Source: Eutreptiella sp. 'Long Island Sound 2002' (lineage: Eukaryota > Euglenozoa > Euglenophyceae > Eutreptiales > Eutreptiaceae). Taken from it: a DNA stretch of 64,000 nucleotides. The stretch is from assembly GCA_964036045.1 (NCBI GenBank), contig OZ038387.1:21095348-21159347 (forward strand). The letters are read 5' to 3'. Positions 5,685-52,700 of this stretch are shown piece after piece (position 1 is the first letter of the stretch; each line of letters starts with the position of its first letter). The translations under genes and the position numbers were made by a program. The notes beneath the pieces are model-generated. The model was not told where the DNA came from, did no database searches, and saw only the letters and a list, made by a program, of their open reading frames with translations.

Positions 5685-5872
5685 ACCACGCTTGGGTGCT
5701 CCCTAGGGTGTGCGCAAATGGCTAAGTTGCAACTGGGGCGGTTCCCCATCTCTAAAAATGGCTACGTTGTGTCGCAGTTTAGGATCACCACACTTTGGTG
5801 CTCCATAGGGTGTGTGCAAATGGCTAAGTTGCAGGGGCGGTTCCCCATCTCTAAAAATGCCTACGCTGTGAT
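5680..5872. repeat. Tandem duplication of a roughly 95-bp segment at the satellite edge
   Basis: Copy 1 (5680-5781) and copy 2 (5782-5872) both run GGAT-ACCAC..., GGTGCTCC-TAGGGTGTG, CAAATGGCTAAGTTGCA, GGGGCGGTTCCCCATCTC and TAAAAATG-CTACG-TGTG. They are about 85-90% identical with small indels. The GGGGCGGTTCCCC core could form a small stem. They sit exactly at the end of the satellite and just upstream of a gene-like region, so they could be promoter-proximal or a second minor tandem family. No function is visible. Confidence 0.8.
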
Positions 5873-5966
5873 GCTTGACCTTGTGAAGTGGGCATACATG
5901 CATACATGTGTAGCGTGTTTCTTTCGTGCCCGTTTTTCCTTCATGGTGCTTCAAACATCTTAGACA

Positions 5967-6971: not shown

Positions 6972-7224
6972 CTGTTTGTGGCTTTTGAGGGGCGTCGCAT
7001 CCACGTTTAACAGTTGTTGAACATTGTTGTGAATTCAGACATGTGAGCTGCAACACAGAATTATCATCGACTATTATGCAACCAACAACCAGCATCCCCA
7101 CAAGCTATTCTCATCCCCCCCCCCAAAAAAAAACGACCGTGTCCAGCCGTTTGATATTTTTTGCACTCTCGTGAACTAAAATGACAAGAAGTGCAGCATC
7201 AGTTTTTTTTCCGTGGTAAAGGTT

Positions 7225-8455: not shown

Positions 8456-9582
8456 GCACGTCTCCATGCCGTTTTGGCTCCGTCCCAACACTTCGGATCT
8501 TTTGCCCATGTAGCCATCTTGGAGCCTAGGTGGTGCCCTTGCCAAATCCAAGTTTTGAGCCGGAAACTCCCCGGTGGCGGCCCGGGGCGTGGGCGCCAAG
8601 TCGAGAGGTGCCCTCCCAAATCTGCACAGTTTTGGGCCAAAAACAGCCATTTTTCGCCCAAAACAGCCCCCAAACCCGGGCAAAACGCCCAAACGAAGGG
8701 AAACGGTATTAACGCGACACGTGCGGCTTGACTTCACCGTGTCAAAGAGCCCTCTAGTGCCCTTCAACTCCACGATATGTCCGAGAAACGGCCCAAAGAG
8801 GCACCAAAAAGCCCTAAAATCTGCGCAATGTGCACCAACACCCCGAAACCAAGCACAGGCGGTATCTTGGGCTACGTGGCTCAAAATCCGATTCCGAGGG
8901 CACCTAGTCCACCCGCAACCCCCCACTTTTTGTGGTTTCCAAGCCGCAAAATCGCCCAACGAGACGCCTAGACCCCCGTACCATTGGTCACTTGGTGCAG
9001 CCGGAGGGCAGCCTGGCCCGCGCACAGTTGGGGCCAACGGTGGGTCCACCGGGGTCCCCGGGGCGAAAAAAATGATTTTTTTCAAAGTTGTTCCCAGACC
9101 ACTTTGGATGCTCAAACAAGTGTTTTTAGGCCGTTTTGAGCCCGTGGTGACGCGTGGCCACGGAAAATCCCAAAATGCCTTGAAAATGGGCCGTTTTGGG
9201 ACCAAAAATGGGTCAAAAATGGGTCAAAAACGCGCTTTTGCAAAAGTGATCCTGTACCATTTATGATGCTCAAACAAGTGTCTTTAGGCCGTTTTGAGCC
9301 CGTGGTGACGGGTTTTGGCCCATGGAAAATCCCAAAATGCATTGAAAATGGGTCGTTTTGGGACCAAAAATGGGTCAAAAATGGGTCAAAAACGCGTTTT
9401 TCCACAAGTGATCCCGGACCATTTGGGATGCTCAAACAACTGTTTATAGCGCATTTTGAGCCCGTTTTGACCGAGTTTAGCCCCTTCCATCACATGTATG
9501 CACCACGTTGTGCCCTTCGCACGTACCTTAGAGCCATATGGTGGAGCCACCTAGAGTTGGGGAGAGGGGTGTAGATTGGAGG
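8366..9582 (+). mobile_element. Family B element, copy 1 (forward)
   Basis: The left end is TACTACACCCCTCTCCCCTT and the right end GGGGAGAGGGGTGTAGATTG, so the termini are inverted copies of CTACACCCCTCTCCCC. Order inside: a (CAA)n tract (CAAG-type in other copies), a conserved segment of about 550 bp (from GCCAAATCCAAGTTTTGAGC to CGGTGGGTCCACC), a roughly 160-bp unit repeated in tandem (GATGCTCAAACAAGTG at about 9110, 9269 and 9429), and a conserved tail (CACATGTATGCACCACGTTG, GTACCTTAGAGCC). The (CAA)n tract here is pure and longer than in other copies. There is no coding capacity, so this is a non-autonomous element. Confidence 0.8.
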
Positions 9583-11533
<1,951 letters not shown>

Positions 11534-15349: not shown

Positions 15350-16572
15350 CTACACCCCTCTCCCCTTAAATCTAGCTAACAAGCAACAACAAGCAAGCAA
15401 CAAGCAAGCAACAAGCAAGCAACAACAAGCAACAAGCACTTCTCCTCACCGTTTTGGCCATTGCTCCGCCTCATCGCTCCGGGCTCTACTCTACTCTAGC
15501 CATCCTAGAGCCTAGGTGGTGGCCTTGCCAAATCCAAGTTTTGGGCCACAAACTCACCGGTGGCGGCCCGGGGCGGGGGCGCCAACTCGGGAGGTGCCCT
15601 CCCAAATCTGCGCAGTTTTGGGCCAAAAACAGCCATTTTTCGCCCAAAACAGCCCCAAAACCCGGGCGAAACGCCCAAACGAAGGGATACGGTGAGTACA
15701 CTGCACGTGCGGCTTCACTTAACCGTGTCAAAGAGCTCTCTAGTGCCCTTCAATTCCACGATATGTCCGAGAAACAGCCCAAAAAGGCGCCAAAAAGCCC
15801 CAAAAACCTGCGCAATGCGCACCACCACCCCGAAAACAAGCACAGGGCGTATCTTGGGTTAGGTGGCTCAAATCCAAATTCGGAGGGCACCTAGTCCACC
15901 CGCAAGCCCCCACTTTTTGTGGTTTCCAAGCCTCAGAATCGCCCAACGAGACGCCTAGACCCCCGTACTAGTGGTCACTTGATGCAGCCGGAGGGCCGGC
16001 TAGCCCACGCACAGTGGGGGCCAGCGGTGGGTCCACCAGGGTCCCCGGGGCGGAAAAAATCATTTTTTCCAAAGTTGTTCCTAGACCACTTGGGATGCTC
16101 AAACTAGTGTTTTTAGGCCGTTTTGAGCCCGTGGTGGCGCGTTTTGGGCCATGGAAAATCCCAAAATGCCTTGAAAATGGGCCATTTTGGGACCAACAAT
16201 GGGTCAAAAATGGGTCAAAAACGCGTTTTTCCAAAAATTATCCTGGACCATTTATGGTGCTCAAACAAGTGGTTTTAGCCCATTTTGAGCCCGTGGCGAC
16301 GGGTTTTGGCTCATGGAAAATCCCAAAATGCCTTGGAAATGGGCCATTTTGGGACCAAAAATGGGTCAAAAATGGGTCAAAAACGCGTTTTTCCAAAAAT
16401 GATCCCGGACCATTTGGGATGCTCAAACAAGTGTTTTTAGCCCGTTTTGAGCCCGTTTTGACCGAGTTTAGCCCCTTCCACCACATGTATGCACCACTTT
16501 GTGCCCTTCGCACGTACCTTAGAGCGGTGTGGTGGAGCCACCTAGAGTTGGGAGAGGGGTGTAGATTGGAGG
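15348..16572 (+). mobile_element. Family B element, copy 4 (forward)
   Basis: A complete copy with CTACACCCCTCTCCCC head, CAAG tract, conserved central segment, two to three 160-bp units (about 16060-16440) and tail GAGAGGGGTGTAGATTGGAG. Very close to copy 1 in layout and length (1.2 kb). Confidence 0.8.
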
Positions 16573-18379
<1,807 letters not shown>

Positions 18380-34634: not shown

Positions 34635-34903
34635 TATGAGGACCCCCCCCCCCCCTGCTGGTGGGGCAGCCGGAGATCCAGACCTGAGGGCTGCTGATTT
34701 TGTGGGTGATGATGGATGGGACCCGGACCCCCCCCCCTCCAGAAGCAGTGTCTGTTCATAGTGATGATTCCGACGCCCCCGTGGCTGTCCTTTCGGAGCT
34801 GAATGAGTTTGACCCTCGATTTTTACCAGGTGCATCCGACTGTGATGCTATTTCTGCCATCTGTGTTCAATCGTCGAGCGCTGCCAGTAGTCATCAACAT
34901 TAG
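34635..34903 (+). pseudogene. C-terminal remnant of gene A in element 1
   Basis: The segment encodes a Pro-rich stretch followed by an acidic, Asp/Ser-rich tail ending with a stop at 34903. The coding frame changes across C runs at about 34643-34656 and 34729-34738. The layout (Pro run, frame change at poly-C, acidic tail with DSDAP and ASDCDA) parallels the end of gene A in element 2 (45720-45939), which lies in the same place relative to gene B. The N-terminal 90% is gone. Confidence 0.5.
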
Positions 34904-35363
34904 AAGCCTGTAAATCAACAATTTGCAGCCCTGTGGCCTTTTGTAGTGTGTTGTGTGACCCTTTGTTAGCCCCTTTGCTAAGCTATGCCTTCGGATACCG
35001 AACTGCCGGAAGGGGATGAGCAGCAGACCGCATCGCAAGCCGTTCACACAGCAGAGAAGACTCGGGCGCAGTCGGGGCAGGCTCCAGTGAAGCGGACGGG
35101 GACAGACCGGGCAACGAAAACATTCCGGACAACGTGGATCAAAAAGGAGCTGGTCAAGATACAGCTGACCAAGATAAAGTTTGACACCGACCTCACGCGT
35201 GGGCAGACCAGAGAGAGGGACGAGGACCCAGTACTATCGCGGATCGCAAGCCTGAGGACAAATCCACCCTGCCGGCCTATCTCAAACATTCTCATATGGC
35301 GAAACGAAGGTACACTACCATCCTGTCACACACGCGTCGTAATTTTGACACAGTCTGGTCGTT

Positions 35364-35381
35364 TGGGCACTGCAGTGCCCA
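35364..35381. repeat. Palindrome P1, copy 1 (TGGGCACTGCAGTGCCCA)
   Basis: An 18-bp perfect palindrome within the first intron (35310-35433) of gene B of element 1. It defines the P1 family. Confidence 0.85.
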
Positions 35382-35978
35382 TCTCGCTGATATCTCCCAT
35401 CTCCCATCTCCCTGTGGTCCATTTTTCTATCAGCTGAAATTCCCTACTGCTTGGGCGGGGCTCATATCCTGACAGCACTCCAAAGACTTCACGGAGAATA
35501 CTGTGAGAAGTCACGGGCACTGCCAGACTGGTTACAACACGTCTACTGTGAGGAGATCAGACACGACTGTCCTGTTGACATCAGAGAGATTATTGGAGGC
35601 GATCACAATGCGGTACAACACTCAGTGAGCAAGCTGAGTATGGGACAAGTGGCCGCTCGAATTTGGACTGAAGTGCAGAAGGGCAAAGCGAAAGAGATGC
35701 TGCTGGTGGCTCTGCGGAAGTGTGGCCGGCTGGGCGAGAAAACATCTGTGGTATGAGAGATGCACGATGAGACCACCGTTGTCAGTCCTTTGCGTACCTG
35801 TGGCCTGTCCAACACTGTATCCCTGCCAGGATTCAATCTGGAAAAATTGGAGACCGCTGGTTTCATTACTGCAGATATCTGGTGGCCGCGTGGCTGAGTT
35901 TATTGACACCTTTGAGAAGACTGCCGGTGAAGGTATTATGTCCTCCGAGCACCTGTTTTCGTCGTCTTTTGGTGTTCA

Positions 35979-36031
35979 TGGGAATTGCAGTGCCCAAATT
36001 CGACGCGACCCTAATTTTTGCACTGCAGTGC
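35979..36031. repeat. Palindrome P1, copies 2 and 3
   Basis: Copy 2 (35979-35996) is TGGGAATTGCAGTGCCCA, imperfect. Copy 3 has the perfect core GCACTGCAGTGC at 36020-36031. Both lie at the intron 35933-36028, and the CTGCAG centre of copy 3 provides the AG of the predicted 3' splice site. Confidence 0.7.
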
Positions 36032-36740
36032 TCAATCCCTACACTCTGCGGCCGTTGACGGGACTGCATGGTGACCAGATGGATGAAATATTGCTGTACA
36101 TGGCTGGAGATGGGGCCAAGATCGCAGGACTACATGCCAAGGCCAGACTGTTGAAGCGGGACCGCCTGTGGGAGATGCTGTACCTTCACCCGGACAACAC
36201 GCTCATCCATCCTTCTCGACGTATGTTTATGGGGCGGCAGGGTCTGGCGCGATCGCTGTTGACCCCCCCCCCCCCCCGGACCCACGACGCCAGGCTGTTT
36301 CGATCCCAGTGGTACCAGTGGTCTCCTGTTCTAACAGTGAACGTGCATGAAATGCAAAGAGTCCGCAAACTGCTTGCAAAGTCGCCGAGGGCCGCCAAAT
36401 TGTCACTGGGGAAATGGACCTGGAGTGCCGAAAATCCCTTACCAAGCTCGGACACCATCCAGAAAGCACCGCTGTGGCAGGATGAGGAATGGGCTGACCT
36501 GAGGATTGCGCTGGCGAGGCCTGTCAAGGAAACTGCAGTGACAACGACTGATGGGGAGAAATCAACAACTATCTGGCTCAACAAGCCGCAAGATGGGACT
36601 GAAGCAACCGGAGCTCGGGCAGAGGCAATTGCGTTGGTTCGTGGCAAGGCTATCCCGTATACGATTGGATTGAGGGAGTACAAAGCGGTATGCAACCATT
36701 AGGCATAAGAATGGGATCGATTTCGCATTGCTGGTCACTT

Positions 36741-36758
36741 TAGGCACTGCAGTGCCCA
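36741..36758. repeat. Palindrome P1, copy 4
   Basis: TAGGCACTGCAGTGCCCA, one mismatch from the perfect form, in the intron 36688-36787. Confidence 0.8.
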
Positions 36759-37788
36759 TCTGTAATGAAATGTGCTTTTGACAACAGGTCTTCATTGAGT
36801 GTACGAAGGAACAAATGGACGATATCCATCCGCTGGTGCTGAAGGTTGCTGCGAAGTTGGTACCTGTGGCTATTGGTGGAATGGCGGCCGACGTTAAGTT
36901 CCTGGTTAATCAATTGCGCGACTCTGAGGAGTGTGGAGGCTGGCAGTATATTATGACCTTTTTTTTTTTATCAGGCAGTCGGTCACCCGACCTATCGGTT
37001 CGAGGAGAGGACTATTTGCTTCTGTGTCCCCGACAAGTTTAGGGTGAAGGTCCCGAATATTTTCATTTGCGATCAGGGTGCATACGGCAGCACCATTGGT
37101 CTGCCAGCGGCTAGTTGGCTCCTGCGTGTGCTTGGTATTGTTCCCCGACGCGACAGACAGTCCGAGGATGAAGTCTGGCTCCTGCTTTTGACAGCATCGG
37201 CTGTATTGCCAGCACAGCTCCTGTCCTGCCTTCCCAAGTCCCCCTATCTGGCAGCTTGCTTCACTGGGCGCCAGGGTTTGTTTAACGAGTTCTGTGAACA
37301 GCTAGCGGCGTATGTGCAGGAGATGGACTGTGTCTACTTGGTTAACTGGGACGCTTGGATGCCAAGGATTAGGGACTGTATGCCAGTTGTGGTGTAGCGG
37401 CCTGGGGAAGGGGAAGATGAGGAGGGGGGGGACGATGTGGAGGAAGAGGAGGATGACGAGATCGTGCTGGTCGGAGGTGGTGACAGCAAGAAGAGGACCA
37501 CCCCCAGCAAGAAGAAGCCGTCCTCCGACGACAGTGGGGATGAGGTTGATGATCCCCCCAAAAGGCCAGCCAAAAAGGCCAAGGACAGTACCCCCCTCAA
37601 TATGTTTCACGCCAAAGTAGGTCAGGCCAAGGGTAAGAAAGCTCCACCAAAGCAGAAGTAGACTGCGTTGTGCGGTTGGCACTGCCTGTGACCATGTCAG
37701 TAGTTTTTTCGCCTCCATTTGCACACTGTCGCGCGTCCTGTTCTATGCAGGTGTGAGACTGGTGCCCTTTTTCATGTTTTGGTAATTT

Positions 37789-37806
37789 TGGGCGCTGCAG
37801 TGCCCA
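37789..37806. repeat. Palindrome P1, copy 5
   Basis: TGGGCGCTGCAGTGCCCA, one mismatch, in the 3' non-coding region of element 1. Confidence 0.8.
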
Positions 37807-38118
37807 AACTCAGCGACTCGCCCTTTTTTTACCCCTGGTGGGCCATTTCTTTTGCAGGCATTGTTGTTGTCATTTATTATTGGATTGCCTGCACTGGCGG
37901 CGCCTCCGTTGTTTGTCGGCACCACTGGTGGTGCATCATTCTTGACGCTTCGCATACAATCACAGTGACTGGGTCAGCAGACGCGGTAACCAAAAGCAAA
38001 CCAGACTTTTGCATGTGTTTGCCTGTCGTCCTCCTTGCTTCATTTTTTAGGTTGCATTTTACGGCATGGTTTGAAATGCAGCAGCGGATGATTTGGAAGA
38101 ATTGGATTTTTCTTTGGA

Positions 38119-38136
38119 TGGACACTGCAGTGCCCA
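38119..38136. repeat. Palindrome P1, copy 6
   Basis: TGGACACTGCAGTGCCCA, one mismatch, about 200 bp inside the right end of element 1. The rest of 37662-38341 is non-coding and otherwise featureless. Confidence 0.8.
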
Positions 38137-38341
38137 AATTTGAAGGGGATACATGACTTTTGACTGGCACATGTTGTACCCCCTACACACAGTCATTTTG
38201 GATAATTCACAGGTTTTTGGGGGTGTTCTCTGCAAAGCACAATTGTGCAATTTTTCATAGTGGTTTTTCAGCCCCCGTTTTGGGGTGGTACCCATTTGGG
38301 AACTGTGGCAATTTTGCTACGTGCGTATAGAGCCGCCTAAG

Positions 38342-41300
38342 TTTGAGGTGAAAATGAGCTGCTTTTGGGCTGTTTTCAGGACAATCGTCCTGAAAATTCA
38401 GGACGATCGCCAGTGTGTTAAGTGGGCGTTTGCAACGAGGGCCGTTGTTCTTTCATGGCAATTGGGCTATCAAAGGAATGCAAATGGGTGTTCAATAAGG
38501 CATGTACCATGCCGTGGTGCCACGCGGCGGTCCATTTTGAGGTGAAAATGAGCCGTTTTTGGGCCGGTTTTGGGCCATTTTTCAGGACAAACGTACTGAC
38601 CGTGGAGGCACATATCCAAAGCAGGCAGTTTCTCCTCCATGGTGATTTTCAATGCGTTAAGCAAGACTAGGACCCAGCTCGGTCCTAGTTCGAGTCTTGA
38701 TTACCGAGCTGGGTTAACCCTGTCGAGGTTTTACACCACCTTTTAGGGTCCAAGGATGAGCTACACGTTTTAGCAGCAACAGCAAGCAGCAACAGCAGCA
38801 AGCAGCAGCAGCAGGCGATTAAAATGTCCTTGGGACCACACCGCGGCTCAAAACCGGCATCCAAGTAGCACAAAACGACCGGGGAGCAAAGGCGCATCAC
38901 CACAAACAATTTTCGTTGCGTTTTGAGCCGTCTAGCCAGTTCTATAGCCAATTTAGTGTCCAAAACCGGCCGTTTTTAGGCTTTTTTCGGCTGTTTTCAA
39001 GACGATCGTCCTGAAAGTTCAGGACGATCGCCGCTACGCCAAGCTGGTGTTTCCGATGAGGGCCGTTGTTTTTCCGTGCCGATTGGGCTATCAAAGGATG
39101 GCAAATGGGTGTTCAATAAGGCGTGTACCACGCCGTGGTGCCACGCGCTGGTCCATTTTGAGGTGAAAATGAGCCGTTTTTGAGCCGTGTTTCAATCGCC
39201 GTAACCATGCAGGCACATCTCTAAAGCAAGCGGTTTTTCCTCAACGGTGTTTTCCAATGCGTTATGCAAGACTAGGACCCAGCACGGTCCTAGTTCGAGT
39301 CTTGATTACCGAGCTGGGTTTACCCTGTCGAGGTTTTACACCACCTTTTAGGGTCCAAGGATGAGCTACACGTTTCAGCAAGCAGCAGCAAGCAGCAACA
39401 GCAACAGCAAGCAGACGCTTAAAAAGTCCTTGCGGCCACACCGGGGCTCACAACCGGCATCCAAGTAGCTCAAAACGACCAGGGAGCCAAGGCGCATCAC
39501 CACAAACAAGTTTCGTTGCATTTCGAGCCGCCTAGCCCGTTCTACGGCCGATTTAGTGTCCAAAAATGGCCGTTTTTGGGCCATTTTCGGCTGTTTTTAG
39601 GACAATCGTCCTGAAAACTCAGGACGATCGCCGCTACGCCAAGCTGGTGATTCCGATGCGGGCCGTTGTTCTTTCATGGCGGTTGGGCTATCAAAGAATG
39701 GCAAATGGGTGTGCAATAAGGCGTGTACCACTCCGTGGTTCCACGCGGTGGTCCATTTTGAGGTGAAAACAAGCCGTTTCTGAGCCGTGTTTCAGGACAA
39801 TCGTCGTAACCATGGAGGCACATCTGCAAAGCAAGCGGTCTTTCTTCAACGGTGATTTCCCATGCGTTACGCAGGACTAGGACCCAGCTCGGTCCTAGTT
39901 CGAGTCTTGATAGTTGGGTTTACCGTGTCGAGGTTTTACACCACCTTTTAGGGTCCAAGGGTGAGCAACACGTTTTAGCAGCAGCAGCAACAGCAGCAAG
40001 CAGCAGGCGGTTAAAAAGTCCTTGTGACCACATCGCGTCTCAAAACCGGCATCCAAGTAGCTCAAAACGACCGCGGAGCCAAGGCGCATCACCACAAACA
40101 AGTTTCGTTGCGTTTCCAGCCGTCTAGCCCGTTCTAGGGCCGATTTAGTGTCCAAAAATGGCCGTTTTGGGGCTGTTTTTGGCTGTTTTCAAGACGATCG
40201 TCCTGAAAGTTCAGGACGATCGCCGCTACACCAAGCAGGTGTTTCTGATGAGGGCCGTTGTTCTTTCATGGCGATTGGGCTATTAAAGGATGGCAAATGG
40301 GTGTTCAATAAGGCGTGTACCACGCCGTGGTGCCACGCAGTGGTCCATTTTGAGGTGAAAATGAGCCGTTTTTGAGCCATGTTTCAGGACCATCGCCGTA
40401 ACAATGGAGGAACATCTGCAAAGCAAGCGGTCTTTCTTCAACGGTTATTTCCAATGCGTTACGCAAGACTAGGACCCAGCTCGGTCCTAGTTCGAGTCTT
40501 GATTACCGAGCTGGGTTTACCCTGTTGAGGTTTTACACCACCTTTTAGGGTCCAAGGGTGAGCAACACGTTTTAGCAGCAACAGCAGCAGCAGCAGCAGC
40601 AAGCAGCAGCAGCAGGCGATTAAAATGTCCTTGGGACCACACCGCGGCTCAAAACCGGCATCCAAGTAGCTCAAAACGACCGGGGAGCAACGGCGCATCA
40701 CCACAAATAATTTTTGGTTGCGTTTTGAGCCGTCTAGCCCGTTCTATAGCCAATTTAGTGTCCAAAAATGGCCGTTTTTAGGCTGTTTTCGGCTGTTTTC
40801 AAGACGATCGTCCTGAAAGTTCAGGACGATCGCCGCTACGCCAAGCTGGTGTTTCCGATGAGGGCCGTTGTTCTTCCGTGCAGATTGGGCTATCAAAGGA
40901 TGGCAAATGGGTGTTCAATAAGGCGTGTACCACGCCGTGGTGCCACGCGCTGGTCCATTTTGAGGTGAAAATGAGCCGTTTTTGAGCCGTGTTTCAGGAC
41001 AATCGCCGTAACCATGCAGGCACATCTCTAAAGCAAGCGGTCTTTCCTCGACGGTGATTTCCAATGCGTTATGCAAGACTAGGACCCAGCACGGTCCTAG
41101 TTGGAGTCTTGATTACCTAGCTGGGTTTACCCTGTCGAGGTTTTACACCACCTTTTAGGGTCCAAGGATGAGCTACACGTTTTAGCAAGCAGCAACAGCA
41201 GCAGCAAGCAGACGCTTAAAAAGTCCTTGCGGCCACACCGGGGCTCACAACCGGCATCCAAGTAGCTCAAAACGACCGGGGAGCCAAGGCGCATCACCAC

Positions 41301-43157
41301 AAACAAGTTTCGTTGCGTTTCGAGCCGTCTAGCCCGTTCCACGGCCGATTTAGTGTCCAAAAATGGCCGTTTTTGGGCTGTTTTTGGCTGTTTTCAGGAC
41401 GATCGTCCTTAAAGTTCAGGACGATCGCCGCTACACCAAGCAGGTGATTCCGATGAGGGCCGTTGTTCTTTCATGGCGATTGGGCTATCAAAGGATGGCA
41501 AATGGGTGTGCAATAAGGCGTGTACCACGCCGTGGTCCATTTTGAGGCGAAAGTGAGCTGTTTCCCAGCGCTTTCGGCTGTTTTCAGGACAATCGTCCTG
41601 AAAGTTCAGGACGATCGCCGCTACGCCAAGCAGGTGTTTCCGATGAGGGCCGTTGTTCTTTCATGGCGATTGGGCTATCAAAGGATGGCAAATGGGTGTG
41701 CAATAAGGCGTGTACCACGCCGTGGTGCCACGCAGTGGTCCATTTTGAGGTGAAAATGAGCCGTTTTTGAGCCGTGTTTCAGGACGATCGTCCTAACCAT
41801 GGAGGCACATCTGCAAAGCAAGCGGTCTTTCTTCAACGGTGATTTCCCATGCGTTACGCAAGACTAGGACCCAGCTCGGTCCTAGTTCGAGTCTTGATTA
41901 CCGAGCTGGGTTTACCCTGTCGAGGTTTTACACCACCTTCTAGGGTCCAAGGGTGAGCAGCACGTTTTAGCAGCAAGAGCAGCAGCAGCAGCAGCAACGG
42001 CAAGCAAGCAAGCAGGCGATCCAAAAGTCTTTGCGACAGCTCCGTGGCTCAAAACCGGCATCCAAGTAGCTCAAAACGATCGGGGAGCGAATGCGCATCA
42101 CCACAAACAAGTTTCGTTGCGTTTTGAGCCGTCTAGCCTGTTCTACGGCCGATTTAGTGTCCAAAAATGGCCAATTTTGGGCTGTTTTCGGGACGATCGC
42201 CCTGAAAACTCAGGACATTCACCGGTGTGTCAAGTGCGCGTTTGCAATGAGGGCCGTTGTTCTTCCATAGCGATGGGGCTATGAAATGATGGCAAATGGG
42301 TGTTCAATACGGCATGTACCATGCCGTGGTGCCACACGGTGGTCCATTTTGAGGTGAAAACAAGCCGTTTTTGAGCCTTATTTGAGAACGATCAACCTGA
42401 CTGTAGAGGTCTGTAAATCTGTAAAGCAAGCGGTCTTTCTTCCACGGTGATTTCCCATGCGTTACGCAAGACTAGGACCCAGCTCAGTCCTAGTTCGAGT
42501 ATTGATTACCGAGCTGGGTTTACCCTGTTGAGGTTTTACACCACCTTTTAGGGTCCAAGGCCGAGCAACACATTTTAGCAGCAACAGCGGCAGCAGCAGC
42601 AAGTAGCAGCAGCAACACGCAGCAGGCGGTCCAAAAGTCCTTGCGACCACACCGCGGCTCAAAACCGGCATCCAAGTAGCTCAAAACCACCGGGGAGCAA
42701 AGGCGCATCACCACAAACAAGTTTCGTTGCATTTTGAGCCGTCTAGCCAGTTCTATAGCCAATTTAGTGTCCAAAAAATGGCCGTTTTGGGGCTGTTTTC
42801 CGGACGATCTTCCTGAAACTTCACGACGATCGCCGGTGTGCCAAGTAGGTGTTTCCGATGAGGGCCATTGTTCTTTCATAGCGATTGGGCTATCAAAGGA
42901 TGGCAAATGGGTGTTTGATAAGGCATGTACCATGCGGTGGTGCCACGCGGTGGTCCATTTTGAGATGAAAACGAGCCCTTTTTGAGCCGTACTTCAAGAC
43001 GATCATCCTGACTCTGGAGGCAAATCTGCACAGCAAGCGGTCTTCCATCCGCAGTGATTTCCAAGGCGTTACGCAAGACTAGGACCCAGCTCGGTCCTAG
43101 TTCGAGTCTTGATTACCGAGCTGGGTTTACCCTGTCGAGGTTTTACACCACCTTTTA
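38342..43157 (+). repeat. Family C macrorepeat array, part 2
   Basis: About eight units of the roughly 600-bp repeat, with TTTTACACCACCTTTTAG near 38725, 39335, 39935, 40535, 41135, 41925, 42535 and 43145. A unit at 41530-41600 is shortened, so two CAGGACGATCG blocks come close together. No gene is supported. The array ends exactly at the target-site duplication of element 2. Confidence 0.9.
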
Positions 43158-43181
43158 CTTAGGCGTCACAAGTTGCCCACC
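43153..43181 (+). repeat. Left target duplication and TIR of element 2
   Basis: TTTTA (43153-43157) then 24-bp TIR beginning CTTAGGCGTCACAAGTTGCC. Confidence 0.9.
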
Positions 43182-43361
43182 CTCTAGGACCCCGTATACG
43201 CGCGATTTGACAATATTCTACATTTCTACTTGAGTATGTTATTTGACGTATGTGACCAAAGTTGTTGGCAGAGCTGTGTGACACCCGTTGAAATACGTGT
43301 TGATGTGTTAGCCTTGTGTATCCCCGTCTTCTAGTGTGTTGTATTTGACGTTTTTCTGAAG

Positions 43362-43662
43362 CTGGCCGAAATTTCGGCCAGGTTTTGGGTAACATTGCAA
43401 ACAACTATGTGTATATGCAGTTATTGACCCTTCTGGCCGAAATTTCGGCCAGCTTTTTGGTTTCCTGGTGAATAGGCATATTTATTTTCATTTTTCTTAG
43501 GGCTGGCCAAAATTTCGGCCAGCTTTTTGTTCTGTTCACTATTCAAGCACTTATATTCTGGTTTTTGGGCGGTCTGGCCGAAATTTCGGCCAGCTTTTCC
43601 TATTTTTGAACATTTTATTAATTATTTCCCCTTTGAACACACCTGGCCGAAATTTCGGCCAG
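43362..43662. repeat. Phased palindrome cluster P2-I (5 copies) upstream of gene A
   Basis: CTGGCCGAAATTTCGGCCAG, a 20-bp perfect palindrome, starts at 43362, 43433, 43503, 43574 and 43643, so the steps are 71, 70, 71 and 69 bp. The copy at 43503 has one change; the rest are exact. The roughly 50-bp spacers are unrelated and AT-rich. The cluster ends 70 bp before the ATG of gene A, so it lies in its promoter or 5' leader. It could be an operator, a binding array for the gene B protein, or transposition sites. This is not a CRISPR array. Confidence 0.92.
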
Positions 43663-43733
43663 CTTGCAATTGTCGTTGTTCATGAGTATTACACCATACA
43701 CTCCTACATGACTGTTTTCTTGTATCAGCATTA

Positions 43734-45812
43734 ATGTCTTCTGCTATTACTGTCAATGTTGTACATGCTGCAGTTACTGGTGCTTTTGCTACTACAGCCA
43801 AACCGCTGTTGCGAAATGCATTACGTCGTGGGACTCTGCAAAAGCTTTTGCAATTCTGCCTCTTGTTGCGGAAGAATCGCAGGAGCCAGCACTCCCTGAC
43901 ACAGTTGAAGGCTGCCGCCACTGAGAAGAAGCCCCCACGATGGTACATGACATTTTTGTCACAGTTCCATGCCCTATACTGCCTGCTGCGCCGTATGGCC
44001 CTCCCATACTCTAGCTGTGGGTCTGGTTACAACTGGGGTATTATGTCCTGCCGCCAACGCCGTAAGGTAGGAGTCCTTGGTCAGTGTAATACTAAGCAGG
44101 AGTCCATTCACCATCGTGCTGGACTAGCAGCACACAACTTGTGGAACACCATGCACCGTAGGCAAGTTTGTATATGGTTTGATAACTTGAGGCGTTACAG
44201 GTCGGGAGCTGATCCCCATTCACCCGACTTAACCCTAAACTGTACAGCTGTTGCTGTTTTGCACACTACTGCCCTACCTGCATACCGGGGTCTGCCGGAG
44301 CTGGCCGAAATTGAGGCCAGGGTACCAAAGGTTGCTGATGACATCTTTCGCTCACATAGAGCATTGTTTGATCGTATTGATGTTGCCAACCAAGGTATTC
44401 AGAGAGTTTGGGTTCGTGCTCCTTTGGATATTGCCAGAAAAAATGTTCGTTCCCTCAACTGGAGACCCTTTTTCCTTTCTGAGCTCCGCTCCGGCACACA
44501 CAAAGAGCTTTTGCAACTCGTGGTTGATTTGTCATGTGTAGAACACCACACCAGACACTGTGTTCCGCTGCTTGTGGACATGAAAATACACTTTGCCCTA
44601 CTTAAGCTGTGTTATGGTGCTGCTTATGTTCCCTGGAATTTACCACAATTACTGTTGGGTTTTCCTTTGGTGTACGGAGTATGGCATAGCTATAAGTATT
44701 GCGTTGAATTGATCTACAGGGCGTTCCTGCCGTTCATTAAGTTTTTGGAGGAGGGGAACAGCCTTCACGTTGGGTCTATCCTCCCTCGCAAGGTCAAGGT
44801 CATCCATATGGAGAAGACGTTGCTTGGACTCATGCTAGCCACATCGTCCAATAGAGGCAGACTAGATGAGCGCGTCACTTCCCTGCTCAATAGCCAGCGG
44901 GACTTGACACCCATTCAGCGCAAGGGTTTGCGTATGTTATTAGCCCTTAAGGCTTTGCTGTACACATACTGTGCAGCTGCTTTCAGCATTGGGACTTTGG
45001 TTCGTGAGTGCAACTGGGAGGGACGGGGGGCAGGTTCCGGTATTGTAGCTAAGCAGGCACTTGAGATGTCCCTACTGCTCATGCTGAACATCCTAAAGCC
45101 CGAGGAACAGTTAACCACGGAGTATGTGAAAACCACCGCTGTTGCTCTTTTGTTTTGGAGTCAGTGGCATTCCGCCTCCCTAGGGTGTATCCACTCTGAG
45201 GAGCTGGGTGAGGCACTTCTGATTCGGTTCTCAGCCCAATGTCGCCGCAACACTGCCTGTACTAGTGTCCAACAGTCGTCTGATTTATTTCTGACACTTC
45301 CCCCTGTCCAACCAGGAGAGAAAGTTTTGCGTGGTGTGCTGACTGAGAGATCCGTGGCAATGTTCTGTGCCAATCTTAAACAATTCATCTTGACAGCCCA
45401 TACACAGAGCCTGCCCATTTGTGTTCCCGTTCCGGACTATAAAGTTGAGGTGAGAAGACTGGATGCAGTTGAGGATTTGACGTTCCCCGGTACCATGTCT
45501 AGGACACGAATCACCACAGACCGTTTAAAAGTGGTTCTGTTGCATGCAATGCAAAATCTGGTTGCGCGTACCAGGGTTCCTGAGGGTGTTGAGGATTTTT
45601 TACAGACAAATGCACCTGCCCGCACTGCTGCCGAGCAAGGGGTGTTGCGTACCGCACATGCTTCTATTCGCGCTGCCAACCGTGCACCGGCTGCTGCTGC
45701 TGCTGCTGCTCCCGTTGGAATTGCCTTGCCCCCAAAGCCACCCCCGAAGCCCCGAGCCAGAGGCCCCCCAGTACCCCCCCCCCCCCGCCCAGTACCCCCC
45801 CCCCGCCCCTGA
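43734..45812 (+). CDS. Gene A of element 2: large protein of unknown family, possible transposase
   Basis: A 692-codon ORF from ATG 43734; AG just upstream (TATCAG) could be a leader splice site. The N-terminal 65 residues are basic. The core (about 70-560) is rich in Trp, Tyr, His and Leu, with segments VCIWFDNLRRYRS, LVDMKIHFALLKLCYG, VYGVWHSYKYCVELIYRAFL and VIHMEKTLLGLMLA. Asp150, Asp282 and Glu360 in these are candidate acidic catalytic residues, which is speculative. The C-terminus is Pro-rich over long C runs (45776-45810). In another frame the sequence continues as an acidic tail (DSCDSDQDIDCDADN) to a stop at 45939. The remnant in element 1 shows the same layout, so the true protein probably includes that tail and the C run is miscounted. 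Coding use clearly differs from the flanking repeats. Confidence 0.7.
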   Translation: MSSAITVNVVHAAVTGAFATTAKPLLRNALRRGTLQKLLQFCLLLRKNRRSQHSLTQLKAAATEKKPPRWYMTFLSQFHALYCLLRRMALPYSSCGSGYNWGIMSCRQRRKVGVLGQCNTKQESIHHRAGLAAHNLWNTMHRRQVCIWFDNLRRYRSGADPHSPDLTLNCTAVAVLHTTALPAYRGLPELAEIEARVPKVADDIFRSHRALFDRIDVANQGIQRVWVRAPLDIARKNVRSLNWRPFFLSELRSGTHKELLQLVVDLSCVEHHTRHCVPLLVDMKIHFALLKLCYGAAYVPWNLPQLLLGFPLVYGVWHSYKYCVELIYRAFLPFIKFLEEGNSLHVGSILPRKVKVIHMEKTLLGLMLATSSNRGRLDERVTSLLNSQRDLTPIQRKGLRMLLALKALLYTYCAAAFSIGTLVRECNWEGRGAGSGIVAKQALEMSLLLMLNILKPEEQLTTEYVKTTAVALLFWSQWHSASLGCIHSEELGEALLIRFSAQCRRNTACTSVQQSSDLFLTLPPVQPGEKVLRGVLTERSVAMFCANLKQFILTAHTQSLPICVPVPDYKVEVRRLDAVEDLTFPGTMSRTRITTDRLKVVLLHAMQNLVARTRVPEGVEDFLQTNAPARTAAEQGVLRTAHASIRAANRAPAAAAAAAPVGIALPPKPPPKPRARGPPVPPPPRPVPPPRP
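44301..44320. repeat. Degenerate P2 palindrome inside gene A
   Basis: CTGGCCGAAATTGAGGCCAG, two mismatches from the 20-bp consensus, lies in frame within gene A and encodes ELAEIEAR. It is the only copy in coding sequence. Confidence 0.6.
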
Positions 45813-46031
45813 TGATTCCATTGCTGTCGACTCTTGTGATAGTGACCAGGATATTGATTGTGATGCAGACAACGTTGCCTCCTTTGAAGCCCTAGATGAG
45901 GCGGAACACATTTGTGTGGATACCCAGGACTGGGACTGATTTCTGTTTGCAGCTGTGTTTGTCACTGTGGTATGGGTTCTGCCACGCATTGCCAGTGGTT
46001 TTGGTGTGTCTATTTGCTGTTTCATGTTTTT

Positions 46032-46190
46032 CTGGCCGAAATTTCGGCCAGACTTGTTGTTTTTTCATATGACTAACCCCAGAACACAAATGACTTAAGG
46101 TTCTGGCCGAAATTTCGGCCAGCCTCTCAGAATGGTATTTGTACACAGTGGTTTGACATGCAGAGCAGTGCTGGCCGAAATTTCGGCCAG
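46032..46190. repeat. Phased palindrome cluster P2-II (3 copies) between genes A and B
   Basis: Exact copies of the 20-bp palindrome start at 46032, 46103 and 46171, spaced 71 and 68 bp. They occupy the gap between the end of the gene A tail (45939) and the ATG of gene B (46310), probably its promoter. Confidence 0.92.
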
Positions 46191-46309
46191 GTTATCCGAA
46201 TTTCCTGTCAGGCAGTCCGTTTTGGTCCTTTTTTGGTTGATCTGTGCTTGTTATTTGCTATCTGGGAACTCTCCCCTTCATGAAATGTTGCCCTGTAGCC
46301 CTTTATTTT

Positions 46310-48897
46310 ATGACTGAGCCTGGAGGGGTATCACAGGACATGGCTGTTTCGCCAGATGGTGAGCCTGCAGCAGACAATGGGCAATCTGAAGTGCAATCCC
46401 AGTCTCAAGAGGACCAGGCGAGCACAGAGGGATTTCAAAAGAAGCCTAAGGCCGCACCAAAGAAAAATTCATCATCCTCCATCAAGTTATCCGACTGGGT
46501 TACGTCAACGACGAAAATAAAGGTTCGGTGGGATCAGATTATTATCTACCACGACCGAAAATTTGGGCAGGTCCGTAGGATTTCGGATGATCGCGTGCAA
46601 CGCCGCTACGACGATCTGAAGGCAGCCCCGCCTGTGGATTACATCCAGCATCTTCTTTTTTATAAAGTCACTCGTATGTGTGTTGTGGTATTCTTCTCGA
46701 TAGTACCGTTTTCGCGTCTGAATTTTCGACCCTGCCATTACGAATATTCCTGTTCCACAGCCACTCGCTGGGTTCTGTTGGGGGGTCAGCATGTTTACAC
46801 TGCTGCCCAAAAACACAAGACCGAATTTGAGATGAAAAATATGGAGACTCCGGATTGGACCCTGGTATTTGGTGGTTATGAAGTCAAACAGGACTGCCCC
46901 CTGCGGACTAGGCGCCGGCTTGCAGGCTTACATCAAATCCAGACCACTTCTGGCTCAGCATCCACCAAATCGGAGCGAATGTCCCTACTCCTGGATAGGC
47001 TTGAGGATGAGGATGCCAATGAGTACACCCTGTACCATCACATTACTGTTATGCTTGAAGAGTGTGGTGTTGCTGCCGAGGAAGGCACTGTGGTGTGTTT
47101 CGTTTATTAATTCGGTTTTGTCGATCGACCTGGCCGAAATTTCGGCGAGCTTCTGTGTTCCATATGTTCTCCTGTGCAGAGTGCTGTTGCCAAACGGTGG
47201 GGTGGCGTTGGGCGTTTGGTGAAATTTGTGGGTCTTCCTTCAGTAGACGCCATGGCAGCCATGGAAAAGCGTGGACTACATCCCGCACTGGGTACGTTCA
47301 AGGAAGTGGAAGGCATCACGCCTGACCGACTTCGCGACATCGTAGGTTACATGGATGGGACAAAAAGTACCCTACCCGGTCTCAAAAAAATTATAAAAGA
47401 TGTTAAAAAGGCCCAGATGTGGTCCTGGCACATTCTTCATCCCGAGGCGGTTACCAATGGGCTTGTGAACAACACCAGAGGTATGTTTTGGTCAAACAGG
47501 GGTTTGTATTCGAATAAATCGACCGACCTGGCCGAAATTTCGGCCAGCTTGTGTGTCGTTCAATTAATGCACAATAGGAGCCCACCCTGTGCTACCACCT
47601 GTCTGCAGCTACACTTGGTACTATCGAGATGGCCAAAAGGCAGTGCGCTATTGCATCACACCTGAAGGTAGCCTATGGCAGTTGGACCTGGACTGAAGTA
47701 AACCCCTGGCCCCCGTGGTCAGCAGTAATTAAGGCCCCTCTTTGGAAGGAACCCAAATATGAGGGGTTGCGGGGATTGTTGCAGAAGCCTGTTGCTAAGC
47801 CTGTTTGTGAAAAATCTGATACTGGTCTGGTCAGTATCCAGTGTGCTAGGGAGTCCCTCGTTGAGTCAAGCACAGGCAAACTCATTGCAGAGTCAGGCCG
47901 TGTGGAACTGATGGCAATGCGTTGTGGAGTCCCTGTTCCCAGTATCATTAGTTCACTGCCCTTTGCTGCTTGTGTCATTGAGGTGCCCCGCCTCTATACA
48001 GCTGGTTTGCATAACTTGGTTGCGCAGCTGCTTTTGTCCGGTGTGCCTGTGTTCATTGCGGGTGAGTCTGCTTATGTGAAAGCCACTATTGCTGCTTTGA
48101 AGGCCACTGTGGCTGAGGATATGTATCAGTGTGATGTTGCACTTTACAATTTGTCAAGCAAGACCCCGCTGTACACTTCTACGTCCCATCCGGTTTCCAT
48201 TTGTTCTGCCACTGCCTTTGATAACAGGCTGCCCCGTTACGTGGCTTTTACTGAAGGACCCATGTCGTCTGTGATGCCTGTTGAAATATTCTCATTTCTT
48301 TTGAGCCTGGTTCCGGTCCCAGAACGGGCAGGCAACTGGTTTTTGCTGGGGACTCTGTCTGTGTATTTTGCAAGCATGATGTCTACCAGGTTTTCCAAGG
48401 ACTGCAATGTTGTGTGTGCCCTTTTGGGTGAGGAGACTGTTGTGCCCGATGACTTTGTTCAGCTCATCAGAGCAGGTATCACCAACGCCGACACGTGCCC
48501 CCCCAAGTCATGGGAGGATGTGTACCACGACTTGGGGGCAGGTTTTCCTGTGGATTGTTCTGGGGTTAGGTATGTAGATGAGGATCCTGAGGAGCAAGAT
48601 GGGGAGGCAGAGTCGCAACCAGAGACACACACTCCAAAGAAGAAACCCAAACATGCCCCTGCCCCCTCACCCAGTGGCACGCAGTGCGCTCAGGCCACCC
48701 CAGCTTCCTCCTCAGGCGCTGTTGCCCCTACTGGCAAAGGTATGAATACTTTTGTGAATCATTTTTCACCATCCCAGGGTGGAAACACACAGTCACAGAA
48801 CTCTGCCACTGCCAAGCCTGGTGCTGCAGCCCCTGCCAAGCCTCCTGCTAACACAGGTGCTAAGAAGCCCCGTGCATCTGGTCTGCGCAAGCGCTAA
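46310..48897 (+). CDS. Gene B of element 2: ParB/sulfiredoxin-fold-like protein, four exons, 761 aa
   Basis: Exons 46310-46673, 46761-47092, 47180-47480 and 47609-48897 join in phase across GT-AG introns of 87, 87 and 128 nt. ATG 46310 is chosen because the frame upstream has only a GTG. Residues 1-60 are acidic/Gln-rich then basic (KKPKAAPKK). Residues 71-185 follow the order of a ParB N-terminal domain: IIIY strand, QVRR, helix, then WVLLGGQHVYTAAQK at about 125-139, a PDW strand and CPLRTRRRLAGLHQ. The GGQH motif corresponds to the GxxR/DGQHR box of ParB-like proteins, by eye only. The middle contains YMDGT, LHPEAV and SWTWTEVNPWPPW, shared with element 1. The C-terminal 90 residues are acidic then Pro/Ala/Lys-rich (THTPKKKPKHAP, ending SGLRKR), suggesting nuclear localisation and DNA contact. 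Introns 2 and 3 each contain one P2 palindrome. A DNA-binding or regulatory partner of gene A is the best guess. Confidence 0.75.
47130..47149. repeat. P2 palindrome in intron 2 of gene B
   Basis: CTGGCCGAAATTTCGGCGAG, one mismatch, inside intron 47093-47179. Confidence 0.85.
47528..47547. repeat. P2 palindrome in intron 3 of gene B
   Basis: An exact 20-bp copy inside intron 47481-47608. Confidence 0.9.
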
Positions 48898-48936
48898 TGC
48901 CAGTCCTGCTGCTTATATTGCCTGTCAGCATGAAGT

Positions 48937-49260
48937 CTGGCCGAAATTTCGGCCAACATGCAGTCCTCAGCCCCTTCAGCCTTTTATTATTGTGTTTCCC
49001 CATAGGCACTACAAAAGTCTGCTTTGATTCGTCAGGTGGCAAGTATTTGCTTGTAATTGAGTATATTATGTTGCACACCCTGTTCAAATGTCACTGCTCC
49101 TGTGTTCCTTGCTCATGTCTACTGTCTTAGGTACCCATTTCAGTGATCATATTCGGAGTTTCGATGGACCTGGCCGAAATTTCGGCCAGCTTAGGCCTGT
49201 CTGTCAAATAGGACCATGTGTTTGGACATTTTTCGAAGAGCTGGCCGAAATTTCGGCCAG
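48937..49260. repeat. P2 palindromes downstream of gene B (3 copies)
   Basis: Copies start at 48937 (last base changed), 49170 and 49241. The last two are exact and 71 bp apart. They lie in the 3' region of element 2; the remaining 49261-49682 is AT-rich, non-coding, with a C run at about 49408-49425. Confidence 0.9.
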
Positions 49261-49682
49261 GTTGGTTAAAATAGGAAATACAAGTACATGCTTTGGGATA
49301 GTTTTCTGTGTGCTTCAATGAAAGGTATGTTTGGGGTTCCCTCATCTGTGGTGCATAGGGGGGTTCTGTGATCAACCTCGAACAAAGGGGAGAGAAAAAT
49401 AGGCAGCCCCCCCCCCCCCCCCCCACACTGGAGGCCATGGCCCCACACTGGAATGCATTGGTGTAAATGTAAAACAACACTATATTTTGGTGATTGAATG
49501 TCTTTATTTTGAAAATCTGTGTGTTTCCAGAAATGCAAATAATGGCATATATTTGAAATACACACCTTGTTTTTGCATGTTGCCACCAGGGGGGTTTGGG
49601 TACCCAAAAAATAACACCCCTTTTCACATACTTTTCCCCTCATTACAACATGGACTTCCGTGGGCCATAGCGCCAGGTGGGG

Positions 49683-49711
49683 GGTGGGCAACTTGTGATG
49701 CCTAAGTTTTA
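49683..49711 (-). repeat. Right TIR and target duplication of element 2
   Basis: The TIR ends AACTTGTGATGCCTAAG (to 49706), followed by TTTTA (49707-49711). One mismatch to the left TIR (A for G at position 8). Confidence 0.9.
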
Positions 49712-52700
49712 GGGGCCAACGGTGAGCAACACGTTTTAGCAGCAGCAGCAGCAGCAGCAGCAGCAAGCAGCAAGCAGCAGGCGGTCCAAAAATCTTTGCC
49801 ACGACACCAGGGCTCAAAACCGGCATCCAAGTAGCTCAAAACGACCGGGCAGCAAACGCGCATCACCGCAACCAAGTTTCGTTGCATTTCAAGCCGTCTA
49901 GCCCGTTCTATAGCCAATTTAGTGTCCAAAAATGGCCGTTTTGGGGCTGTTTTCGGTTGTTTTAAGGACGATCGTCCTGAAATTTCAGGACGATCGCCGC
50001 TACGCCAAGCAGGTGATTCCGATGAGGGCCGTTGTTCTTTCATGGCGATTGTGCTATCAAAGGATGGCAAATGGGTGTGCAATAAGGCGTGTACCACTCC
50101 GTGGTTCCACGCGGTGGTCCATTTTGAGGTGAAAATGAGCCGTTTTTGAGCCGTGTTTCAGGACCATCGTCGTAACCATGCAGGCACATCTCTAAAGCAA
50201 GCGGTTTTTCCTCAACGGTGATTTCACATGCGTTACGCAAGACTAGGACCCAGCTCGGTCCTAGTTCGAGTCTTGATTACCGAGCTGGGTTTACCCTGTC
50301 GAGGTTTTACACCACCTTTTAGGGTCCAAGGGTGAGCAACACGTTTTAGCAAGCAGCAAGCAAGCAGCAGCAGCAGCAGGCGGTCCAAAAGTCTTTGCGA
50401 CGACACCGTGGCTCACAACCGGCATCCAAGCAGCTCAAAACGACCGGGGAGCGAAGGCGCATCACCACAAACAAGTTTCGTTGCAATACTGAGCCGTCTA
50501 GCCCGTTCTACGGCCGATTTAGTGTCCAAAAATGGCCGTTTTGGGGCTGTTTTTAGGACGATCGTCCTGAAAACTCAGGACGATCGTTGGTCTGCCGCGT
50601 AGGTGTTTCCGATGAGGGCCGTTGTTCTTCCATAGCGATTGGGCTATCAAATGATGGCAAATGGGTGTTCAATAAGGCATGTACCATGCCGTGGTGCCAC
50701 GCGGTGGTCCATTTTGAGGTGAAAATGGACAGTTTTTGAGCCGTGTTTCAGGAGGATCGTCCTAACCGTCGAGGCACATCTTGAAAGCAAACAGTGGTGA
50801 TTTCCAATGCGTTACGCAAGACTAGGACCTAGCTCGGTCCTAGTCGTGAGTCTTGATTACCGAGCTGGGTTTACCCTGTCGAGGTTTTTCACCACCTTTT
50901 AGGGTCCAAGGGTGAGCAACACATTTTCCAAGGGTGAGCAACACATTTTTACCGAGCTGGGTTTACCCTGTCGAGGTTTTACACCACCTTTTAGGGTCCA
51001 AGGGTGGGCTACACGTTTTAGCAAGCAGCAGCAGCAGCAGCAGCAAGCAAGCAACAGGCGGTCCAAAAGTCCTCGCGACCACACGGTGGGTCAAAGCCGG
51101 CATCCAAGTAGCTCAAAACGACCGGGGAGCCAACGCGCATCACCACAAACAGGTTTCGTTGCGTTTCGAGCCGTCTAGCCCGTTCTACGGCCGATTTAGT
51201 GTCCAAAAATGGCCGTTTTGGGTCTGTTTTCAGGATGATCGTCGTGAAAACTCAGGACGATCGCCGGTGTGTCAAGGGGGCGTTTGCAATGAGGGCCGTT
51301 GCTCTTCCATGGCGATTTGGCTATCAAATGATGGCAAATCGGTGTTCAATATGGCATGTACCATGCCGTGGTGCCACACGGTGGCCCATTTTGAGCTGAA
51401 AATGAGCCTTTTTTGAGCCATGTTTCAGGACGATCGTCCTGATCGTTGAGGCATATCTCTAAAGCAAGCGGTCTTTCTTCAACGGTGTTCTCCAATGCGT
51501 TACGCAAAACTAGGACCCAGCTCGGTCCTAGTTCGAGTCTTGATGTAATAGGCTGGCCAGAAACATGCTTTTTCTGCCGGTTTGAGCCGTCTAGCCCGTT
51601 CTACGGCCAATTTAGTGTCCAAAAATGGGCGTTTTTGGGCGGTTTTCAGGACGATCGTCCTGAAAACGATCGCCGGTGTGTCAAGTGGGCCTTGCAATGA
51701 GGGCCGTTGTTCTTCCATGGCGATTGGGCTATGAAAGGATGGCGAATGGGTGTTCAATAAGGTATGTACCATGCCGTGGTGCCACACGGTGGTCCATTTT
51801 GAGGTGAAAATGCGCCGTTTTTGTGCCGTGTTTCACGACGATCGTCCTGACCGTGGAGGCACATCTCTAAAGCAAGCGGTCTTTCTTTAACGGTGATTTC
51901 CCACACGTTACGCAAGACAAGGACCCAGCTCGGTCCTAGTTCGAGTCTTGATTACCGAGCTGGGTTTACCCTGTCGAGGTTTTACACCACCTTTTAGGGG
52001 CCAAGGCTGAGCAACACGTTTTAGCAGCAGCAAGCAGCAAGCAGCAGCAGCAGCAGCAGCAAGCAGCAGACGCTTAAAAAGTCCTTGAGACCACACTGCG
52101 GCTCAAAACCGGCATCCAAGTAGCTCAAAACGACCGCGGAGCCAAGGCGCATCACCACAAACAAGTTTCGTTGCATTTCAAGCCGTCTAGCCCGTTCTAC
52201 GGCCGATTTAGTGTCCAAAAAAGGCCGTTTTTGGGCTGTTTTGGGCCGTTTTCAGGACGATCGTCCTGAAAACTTAGAACGATCGTTGGTTCGTCTAGTA
52301 GGCATTTGCAATGAGGGCCGTTGTTCTTCCATGGTGATTGGGCTATCAAATGGTGGCAAATGGGTGTTTAATACGGCATGTACCATGCTGTGGTGCCACA
52401 CGGTGGTCCATTTTGAGGTGAAAACAAGCCGTTTTTCAGCCATTTTTCAGAACGATCGTACTGACTGTGGAGGCACATCTCTAAAGCAAGCGGTCTTTCC
52501 TCAACGGTGATCTCCAATGCGTTACGCAAGACTAGGACCCAGCTCGGTCCTAGTTCGAGTCTTGATAGCAAGCAGCAAGCAAGCAGCAGCAGCAGCAGCA
52601 GCAGGCGGTCCAAAGGTCCTTGCGACCACGCCGTTGCTCAAAACCGGCATCCAAGCAGCTCAAAACGAGCGGGGAGCAAACACGCATCACCACAAACAAG

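Follow-up and report, generated by a model that had tools for sequence, protein, structure and literature searches.

A regularly spaced palindrome in a DNA transposon of Eutreptiella as a predicted family-specific binding site for an element-encoded protein

The window analysed here, a 64,000-nucleotide stretch from Eutreptiella sp. 'Long Island Sound 2002' (assembly GCA_964036045.1, contig OZ038387.1, forward-strand positions 21,095,348 to 21,159,347), contained a DNA transposon, element 2, in which a 20-bp palindrome recurred at short, regular steps. The element occupied positions 43158..49706 of the window on the plus strand (6,549 bp), as read from its termini and target duplication, and other copies had the same termini. 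The left terminal inverted repeat (43158..43182, plus strand, CTTAGGCGTCACAAGTTGCCCACCC) started with CTTAGGC, and the right one (49682..49706, minus strand) showed one mismatch to it. The target-site duplication TTTTA was found at 43153..43157, within a tandem repeat of about 608 bp, and at 49707..49711, beside the right terminus. The ends of element 2 copies were surveyed in the window and in L025-L051, 28 loci in all. Both ends were seen at 22 loci, where the five flanking bases were identical in 19 and one base off in 3; L027 and L028 were adjoining pieces of a single interrupted copy with CCCCA on either side, and the other four loci showed only one end. Because the two flanks of a copy agreed in this way, element 2 moves as one unit and produces a 5-bp target duplication.

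Two genes were recognized in the element, both on the plus strand. Gene A was an open frame of 692 aa (43734..45812) with a proline-rich end and no known domain. The end of this frame is uncertain, since past a C-rich stretch (window 45760-45940) a gene A relative of 747 aa, P0002, ended in another frame than the window copy. Gene B was most simply read as four exons (46310..46673, 46761..47089, 47180..47480 and 47609..48897) with a phase-consistent translation, the putative GT-AG junctions being taken from the sequence and giving a spliced protein of 760 aa. Of its three predicted introns, the first (46674..46760) was open in frame and free of the palindrome, and the frames of related proteins diverged at its junction; the second (47090..47179) and the third (47481..47608) each contained a palindrome. 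The relatives of genes A and B were only unnamed 'ena' proteins among the candidates scored in three protein searches, in two of which the best 7,998 and 7,995 candidates by shared words were scored. A gene A pattern was found at 780 places in the genome with at most one mismatch.

The palindrome CTGGCCGAAATTTCGGCCAG matched the window at 14 places when up to three mismatches were allowed (10 exact, 3 with one change and 1 with two changes), all of them within 43362-49260, and no match was found in any of 100 dinucleotide shuffles of the window. A previous, sequence-only reading of this DNA had counted 13 copies, 10 exact and 3 with one change; all of these were recovered, and the two-change copy was added to them. 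Five sites lay in the leader (43362..43381, 43433..43452, 43503..43522, 43574..43593 and 43643..43662; 205, 276, 346, 417 and 486 from the left terminus), three between genes A and B (46032..46051, 46103..46122 and 46171..46190), one each in the predicted introns 2 (47130..47149) and 3 (47528..47547) of gene B, and three in the 3' region (48937..48956, 49170..49189 and 49241..49260, the last starting 447 from the right terminus). The one-change sites were those starting at 43503, 47130 and 48937, and the two-change, palindrome-like site (44301..44320) was located within the reading frame of gene A. The proposed confinement to noncoding DNA was therefore correct for all 13 copies for which it had been claimed, but not for this additional one. 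With a noncoding fraction of 0.334, based on the inferred exons, the probability of at least 13 noncoding sites out of 14 was 6e-6.

Other copies of element 2 had the palindrome layout in common with the window copy, a test that the sequence-only reading had suggested. Column majorities of the window copy together with those fetched, L026 excepted (mean coverage 23), read CTGGCCGAAATTTCGGCCAG at all 13 noncoding sites, so the three one-change sites were private mutations of the window copy, while the gene A site retained two changes that were also present in the majority of copies. Genome-wide, the exact palindrome occurred at 6,168 places and the reversed control at none; among the matches listed, 50 distinct exact places fell into six clusters, and every cluster had element 2-like sequence by blastn. 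From the distribution of these sites, it appears rather probable that the palindromes are family-specific binding sites for the transposon's own protein, encoded by gene A or gene B.

The steps inside the clusters of element 2 were 71, 70, 71 and 69 bp in the leader, 71 and 68 bp between the genes and 71 bp in the 3' region, each exactly as claimed previously. The spacing of about 70 bp had been ascribed to the whole element; it was found only within clusters, whereas the remaining gaps ranged from 233 to 1,731 bp. These steps had also been taken as about seven helical turns, with a protein binding cooperatively on one face of the DNA. The one-face geometry was not supported, because at 10.5 bp per turn 69, 70 and 71 bp correspond to 6.57, 6.67 and 6.76 turns, so that neighbouring sites would be offset by about two thirds of a turn; in-phase neighbours would need about 10.1 bp per turn. 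The spacers, which had been described as unrelated, proved not wholly so when their similarity was computed: three of the four leader spacers were weakly similar to each other (z 2.4-3.1). The six within-leader pairs had a mean z of 1.72, versus 0.23 when spacers were paired with two from between the genes and two of the related element L052 (16 pairs), and one leader spacer resembled the right-end spacer (z 3.9). The arrays probably grew as a unit of about 70 bp was duplicated in tandem, the spacers drifting and the sites and distances being kept. Growth by tandem duplication is described for VANC targets (PMC5735166).

Related elements in the same genome allowed the spacing to be compared. 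Over the main aligned stretches, the gene A relative of L052 was 32-48% identical to P0001 and 73-78% identical to P0017. L055 was a further piece of the P0017 type, and the termini of both started with CTTAGGCC. The leaders of the relatives were scored against a degenerate site with 18 informative positions. The sites of L052, at 204, 275, 343 and 456 from the terminus, scored 17, 15, 13 and 17, and those of L055, at 207, 277 and 346, scored 11, 16 and 14; 100 shuffles of each leader gave no site at a threshold of 13. L058, a better copy with a leader 89% identical to that of L052, had sites at 206, 275 and 344 with scores of 18, 18 and 17. The first three leader sites of L052 and L058 were thus found within 3 bp of those of element 2, and CTTAGGC termini were common to element 2, L052, L055, L058 and the right end of element 1, a more distant relative in the window. 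No leader array was found in L053 and L054, which were degraded or rearranged. The spacers of element 2 compared with those of L052 or L055 at z -0.4 to 1.4, versus 3.1 to 10.8 between L052 and L055. That the distances from the terminus were kept while the spacers could hardly be aligned is the best argument for constraint.

The regularity of about 70 bp could instead be a mere relic of tandem duplication, the sites being important and their spacing not. The weak similarity of the three leader spacers agrees with such an origin, as do the sites without this spacing in the family of element 1; but a relic is unlikely to account for steps and a first-site distance that differ by no more than 2-3 bp from element 2 to its relatives. 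Between sites three and four, by contrast, the distance is not kept, being 113 bp in L052 and 71 bp in element 2. Spacing and orientation of the relatives' site also count in favour of binding sites for an element-encoded protein. The site of the relatives, TGGRCGAAATTTCNNCCAGC, was found at 10,840 genome places with at most one mismatch, family 2 sites included, and the reversed control at none. The 100 matches listed were all exact, and 98 were kept after two plus-strand duplicates of self-complementary places had been dropped. These 98 places gave 26 same-strand neighbour intervals of 300 bp or less, with 13 at 69 bp, 1 at 70 bp, 2 at 138 bp and 10 at 111-257 bp. Eighty of the 98 were asymmetric and formed 45 groups within 7 kb, 11 of which were two-stranded; in all 11 the plus-strand sites came first and the minus-strand sites after them, facing inward from either side. 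The outer sites of these two-strand groups may mark element ends. Since family copies share descent, the groups and intervals are not independent events.

Element 1 (34640..38341, plus strand; left edge approximate, set by eye) was 5'-truncated, with a CTTAGGC right terminus and a gene B relative that was 23-30% identical to gene B in two blocks, and 28% identical in a second comparison. It carried a different palindrome of 18 bp, TGGGCACTGCAGTGCCCA, which occurred in the window at one exact and five degenerate places (chance mean 0.1). The exact place (35364..35381) was in the predicted intron 1; three places with one change were found at 36741..36758 in an intron placed by eye, at 37789..37806 in the 3' region and at 38119..38136, 206 from the right terminus; and two more degenerate sites (35979-35996 with 2 changes and 36017-36034 with 3), whose starts were 38 bp apart, were possibly coding. 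Genome-wide, TGGGCACTGCAGTGCCCA had 842 exact places and 5,609 places at two or fewer mismatches, whereas its reversed control had 67. All three families had TGG..CCA over 18 bp in their sites, and the inner bases differed most in family 1.

The gene B relatives P0090, P0091 and P0093-P0097 were 48-57% identical to exons 1-2 of element 2 gene B, and the likeness ended at intron 1. Past this junction, six of the seven proteins read VGRNFGQ (three exactly and three with one change), and P0096 read RLAEISAS; the palindrome translated in two frames would give GRNFGQ and LAEISAS. Because these peptides match, the family of these proteins seems, from the protein letters, to carry its site in another intron than element 2 does. 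Differences in the motif between families bear on whether a host factor, or nucleosome positioning, acts at the sites in place of an element-encoded binder. Two steps cover about 140 bp, which is near the length of DNA in a nucleosome, and neither gene A nor gene B has a known DNA-binding domain, but the motif differs among families within one genome and none of the listed places lay outside the transposon, so a host factor or nucleosomes must be considered a doubtful explanation.

The derivative L026 (3,923 bp, target duplication TACTA) was built of duplicated and inverted parts from the leader, the intergenic DNA and the 3' region of a relative with 70-82% identity to element 2, and its gene bodies were lost save for the start of gene B. 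It nevertheless contained 31 sites at four or fewer changes, 11 of them exact. A 261-bp junction segment of L026 had at least 40 genome matches at 98-100% identity, itself included, among 1,169 candidates; the recurrence refers to this junction piece, and the content of 31 sites to L026 itself. One junction match was located at G000:C10:21080653-21080913, about 14.4 kb left of the window. The derivative suggests that arrays plus ends may be enough for recognition in trans, although its success may have other causes. It also bears on the idea that the palindrome acts as a hairpin in RNA, with a role such as splicing or RNA stability. The perfect self-complementarity and the sites in the leader and the predicted introns would suit a hairpin; the 31 sites kept despite the lost gene bodies, the sites close to both termini and the imperfect pairing of the relatives' leader sites make it highly improbable.

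Binding by an element-encoded protein is thus predicted from sites that are, among the places listed, confined to the transposon, and that are mostly noncoding, different between families, at near-fixed distances from the terminus and multiplied in a derivative without gene bodies. From the same distribution, the sequence-specific binder of the previous reading gains indirect support, unlike its one-face geometry. A homodimer may bind each palindrome, and the arrays near both ends may help to pair the ends or make the element recognizable to its transposase, a role like that of TNPA at the Spm/En subterminal repeats. Occupied sites in the leader, the intergenic DNA and the introns may in addition keep the element's genes expressed or oppose silencing, an effect that VANC has in VANDAL elements.

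Spm/En has a repeated motif near its ends that diverges between families and is recognized by the element's DNA-binding protein TNPA (PMC2613891), and element 2 likewise has a repeated near-end motif that differs by family. The arrays toward the ends of element 2 are known from its sequence. However, its termini are CTTAGGC with a 5-bp duplication, not CACTA with 3 bp; its sites are palindromes of 18-20 bp at steps of about 70 bp that also occur in predicted introns and between the genes; and a Pfam search with gene A and the exons of gene B gave no CACTA transposase domain above chance level. VANDAL elements have target duplications of about 9 bp, whereas that of element 2 is 5 bp, and no Mutator transposase domain was found for gene A or gene B in the Pfam sequence search. 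The likeness to VANDAL is in short family-specific noncoding motifs, introns included, and in traces of tandem duplication (PMC5735166, PMC10398659). With regard to these traces, element 2 showed the weak spacer similarity and L026 a clear duplication of blocks. The VANC21 motif has 9 bases in one orientation, in contrast to the palindrome of 18-20 bp at steps of about 70 bp. By the features tested, element 2 belongs to neither Spm/En nor VANDAL.

A role of the arrays only in anti-silencing or gene expression, as for VANC, would mean that the protein coats the noncoding DNA of its own family and strips silent marks without any part in transposition. The intron and intergenic sites, the family-specific motifs and the traces of tandem duplication all agree with it, and the VANC reports place the VANC motifs in noncoding tandem repeats, introns included (PMC5735166; PMC10398659). 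End recognition, however, is better suited by the fixed distance from the terminus, the inward two-strand groups and the multiplied sites of the gene-less derivative, and CpG decay in the sites shows no reduction, so this restricted role is rather unlikely. Element 2 may also represent an undescribed superfamily, defined by CTTAGGC, a 5-bp duplication and two domain-less genes, in which protein and palindrome change together, the sites begin at about 205 bp and continue in steps of about 70 bp, and a single binding system is used for recognizing the ends as well as for escaping silencing; this wider proposal is put forward tentatively, at less than even confidence. If element-encoded proteins do bind the sites, this would be another, apparently independent case in which a transposon marks its own noncoding DNA by protein sites specific to the family, with an unusual geometric rule that is directly testable. 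Several families with related or different sites in one genome would make the co-change of binder and sites traceable, and the 780 gene A motif places and 6,168 exact sites would form a rich natural experiment.

Several results weigh against binding by an element-encoded protein or against parts of the proposed mechanism. No recognizable DNA-binding or transposase domain was found in gene A or gene B by profile searches; the comparisons with Pfam and PDB sequences gave no trustworthy match, the best being at chance level (HTH_47, E 0.18), and the AlphaFold2 models were unusable, with a mean pLDDT of 41 for gene A and 37 for gene B exons 1-2 with the in-frame intron. Among young copies, the divergence of the palindromes was 1.28% versus 1.41% for other noncoding DNA, a near-equality as expected under neutral decay, with no sign of selection. 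Within the palindromes, CpG sites changed more than other sites (1.96% versus 1.10%); CpG-site change was 2.29% in other noncoding DNA and 1.66% in coding DNA of the element, and the CpG ratio was 0.54 in element 2 versus 0.70 in the window. Because of this decay and the lower CpG ratio of the element, nothing indicates that the palindromes are unmethylated; the CpG figures weigh against an anti-silencing role, yet do not decide on it. In the relatives, the third site of L052 reached just 13 of 18, the first of L055 was at background level with 11 of 18, and the leader sites were imperfect palindromes with CC or TT in the right half. L059 had steps of 69, 69 and 111, but CTTAGGC was not found at the expected position of its terminus. 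The terminal parts of element 2 and L058 compared at z = 2.94, so faint homology between the terminal regions of the families is possible. In the family of element 1, no spacing of about 70 bp was found among 50 distinct places in each of two listings; the closest listed places were at least 232 bp apart, with recurrent steps of 653, about 722, 1,378, 1,592 and about 1,736 bp.

ParB-like proteins were considered as a further comparison. The parS site is palindromic. It has 16 bp and is the site for the clamp protein ParB (PMC8494293), and a ParB-like accessory protein is reported for a brown-algal transposon, similar proteins being described from green and red algae (PMC12477816). A faint Q-R and GGQH pattern was seen by eye in gene B, but a ParB-like gene B gained no support, as no trustworthy match was obtained in Pfam, NCBIfam, PHROGs, PADLOC or PDB sequences. 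An hhalign comparison of four sequences with the single sequences of YbdM and P1 ParB, a weak test, was not significant. The Rfam scan gave no match at gathering thresholds, and IMG/VR scanned with gene A gave 26 pattern matches and no relatives. Among the papers listed on VANC, CACTA, ParB and new superfamilies, with subscription papers and repeat databases mostly outside, no account of element 2 was found. The core CCGAAATTTCGG occurred in the text of no paper searched, a weak negative because sequences seldom stand in running text.

Some other features were observed. P0024, a relative of gene A that has 722 aa and 28-29% identity, came from a 2.6-kb contig that may belong to another organism. 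L052 contained a long satellite rich in inverted repeats (3960-7501; CGTCAAATATTTGACG and GGGGGTGTACACCCCC types with 26- and 52-bp steps), which was broken by tandem repeats that appeared coding by eye. In the window, the tandem repeat of about 608 bp that flanks element 2 (41000-43150 and 49712-52500) had its own inner palindrome, with the core GGACGATCGTCC at 16 places, and another palindrome, AAAACGCGTTTT, was found at 9 places in 9388-10280 and 16217-18200, several of them at 160-163 bp steps in another repeat.

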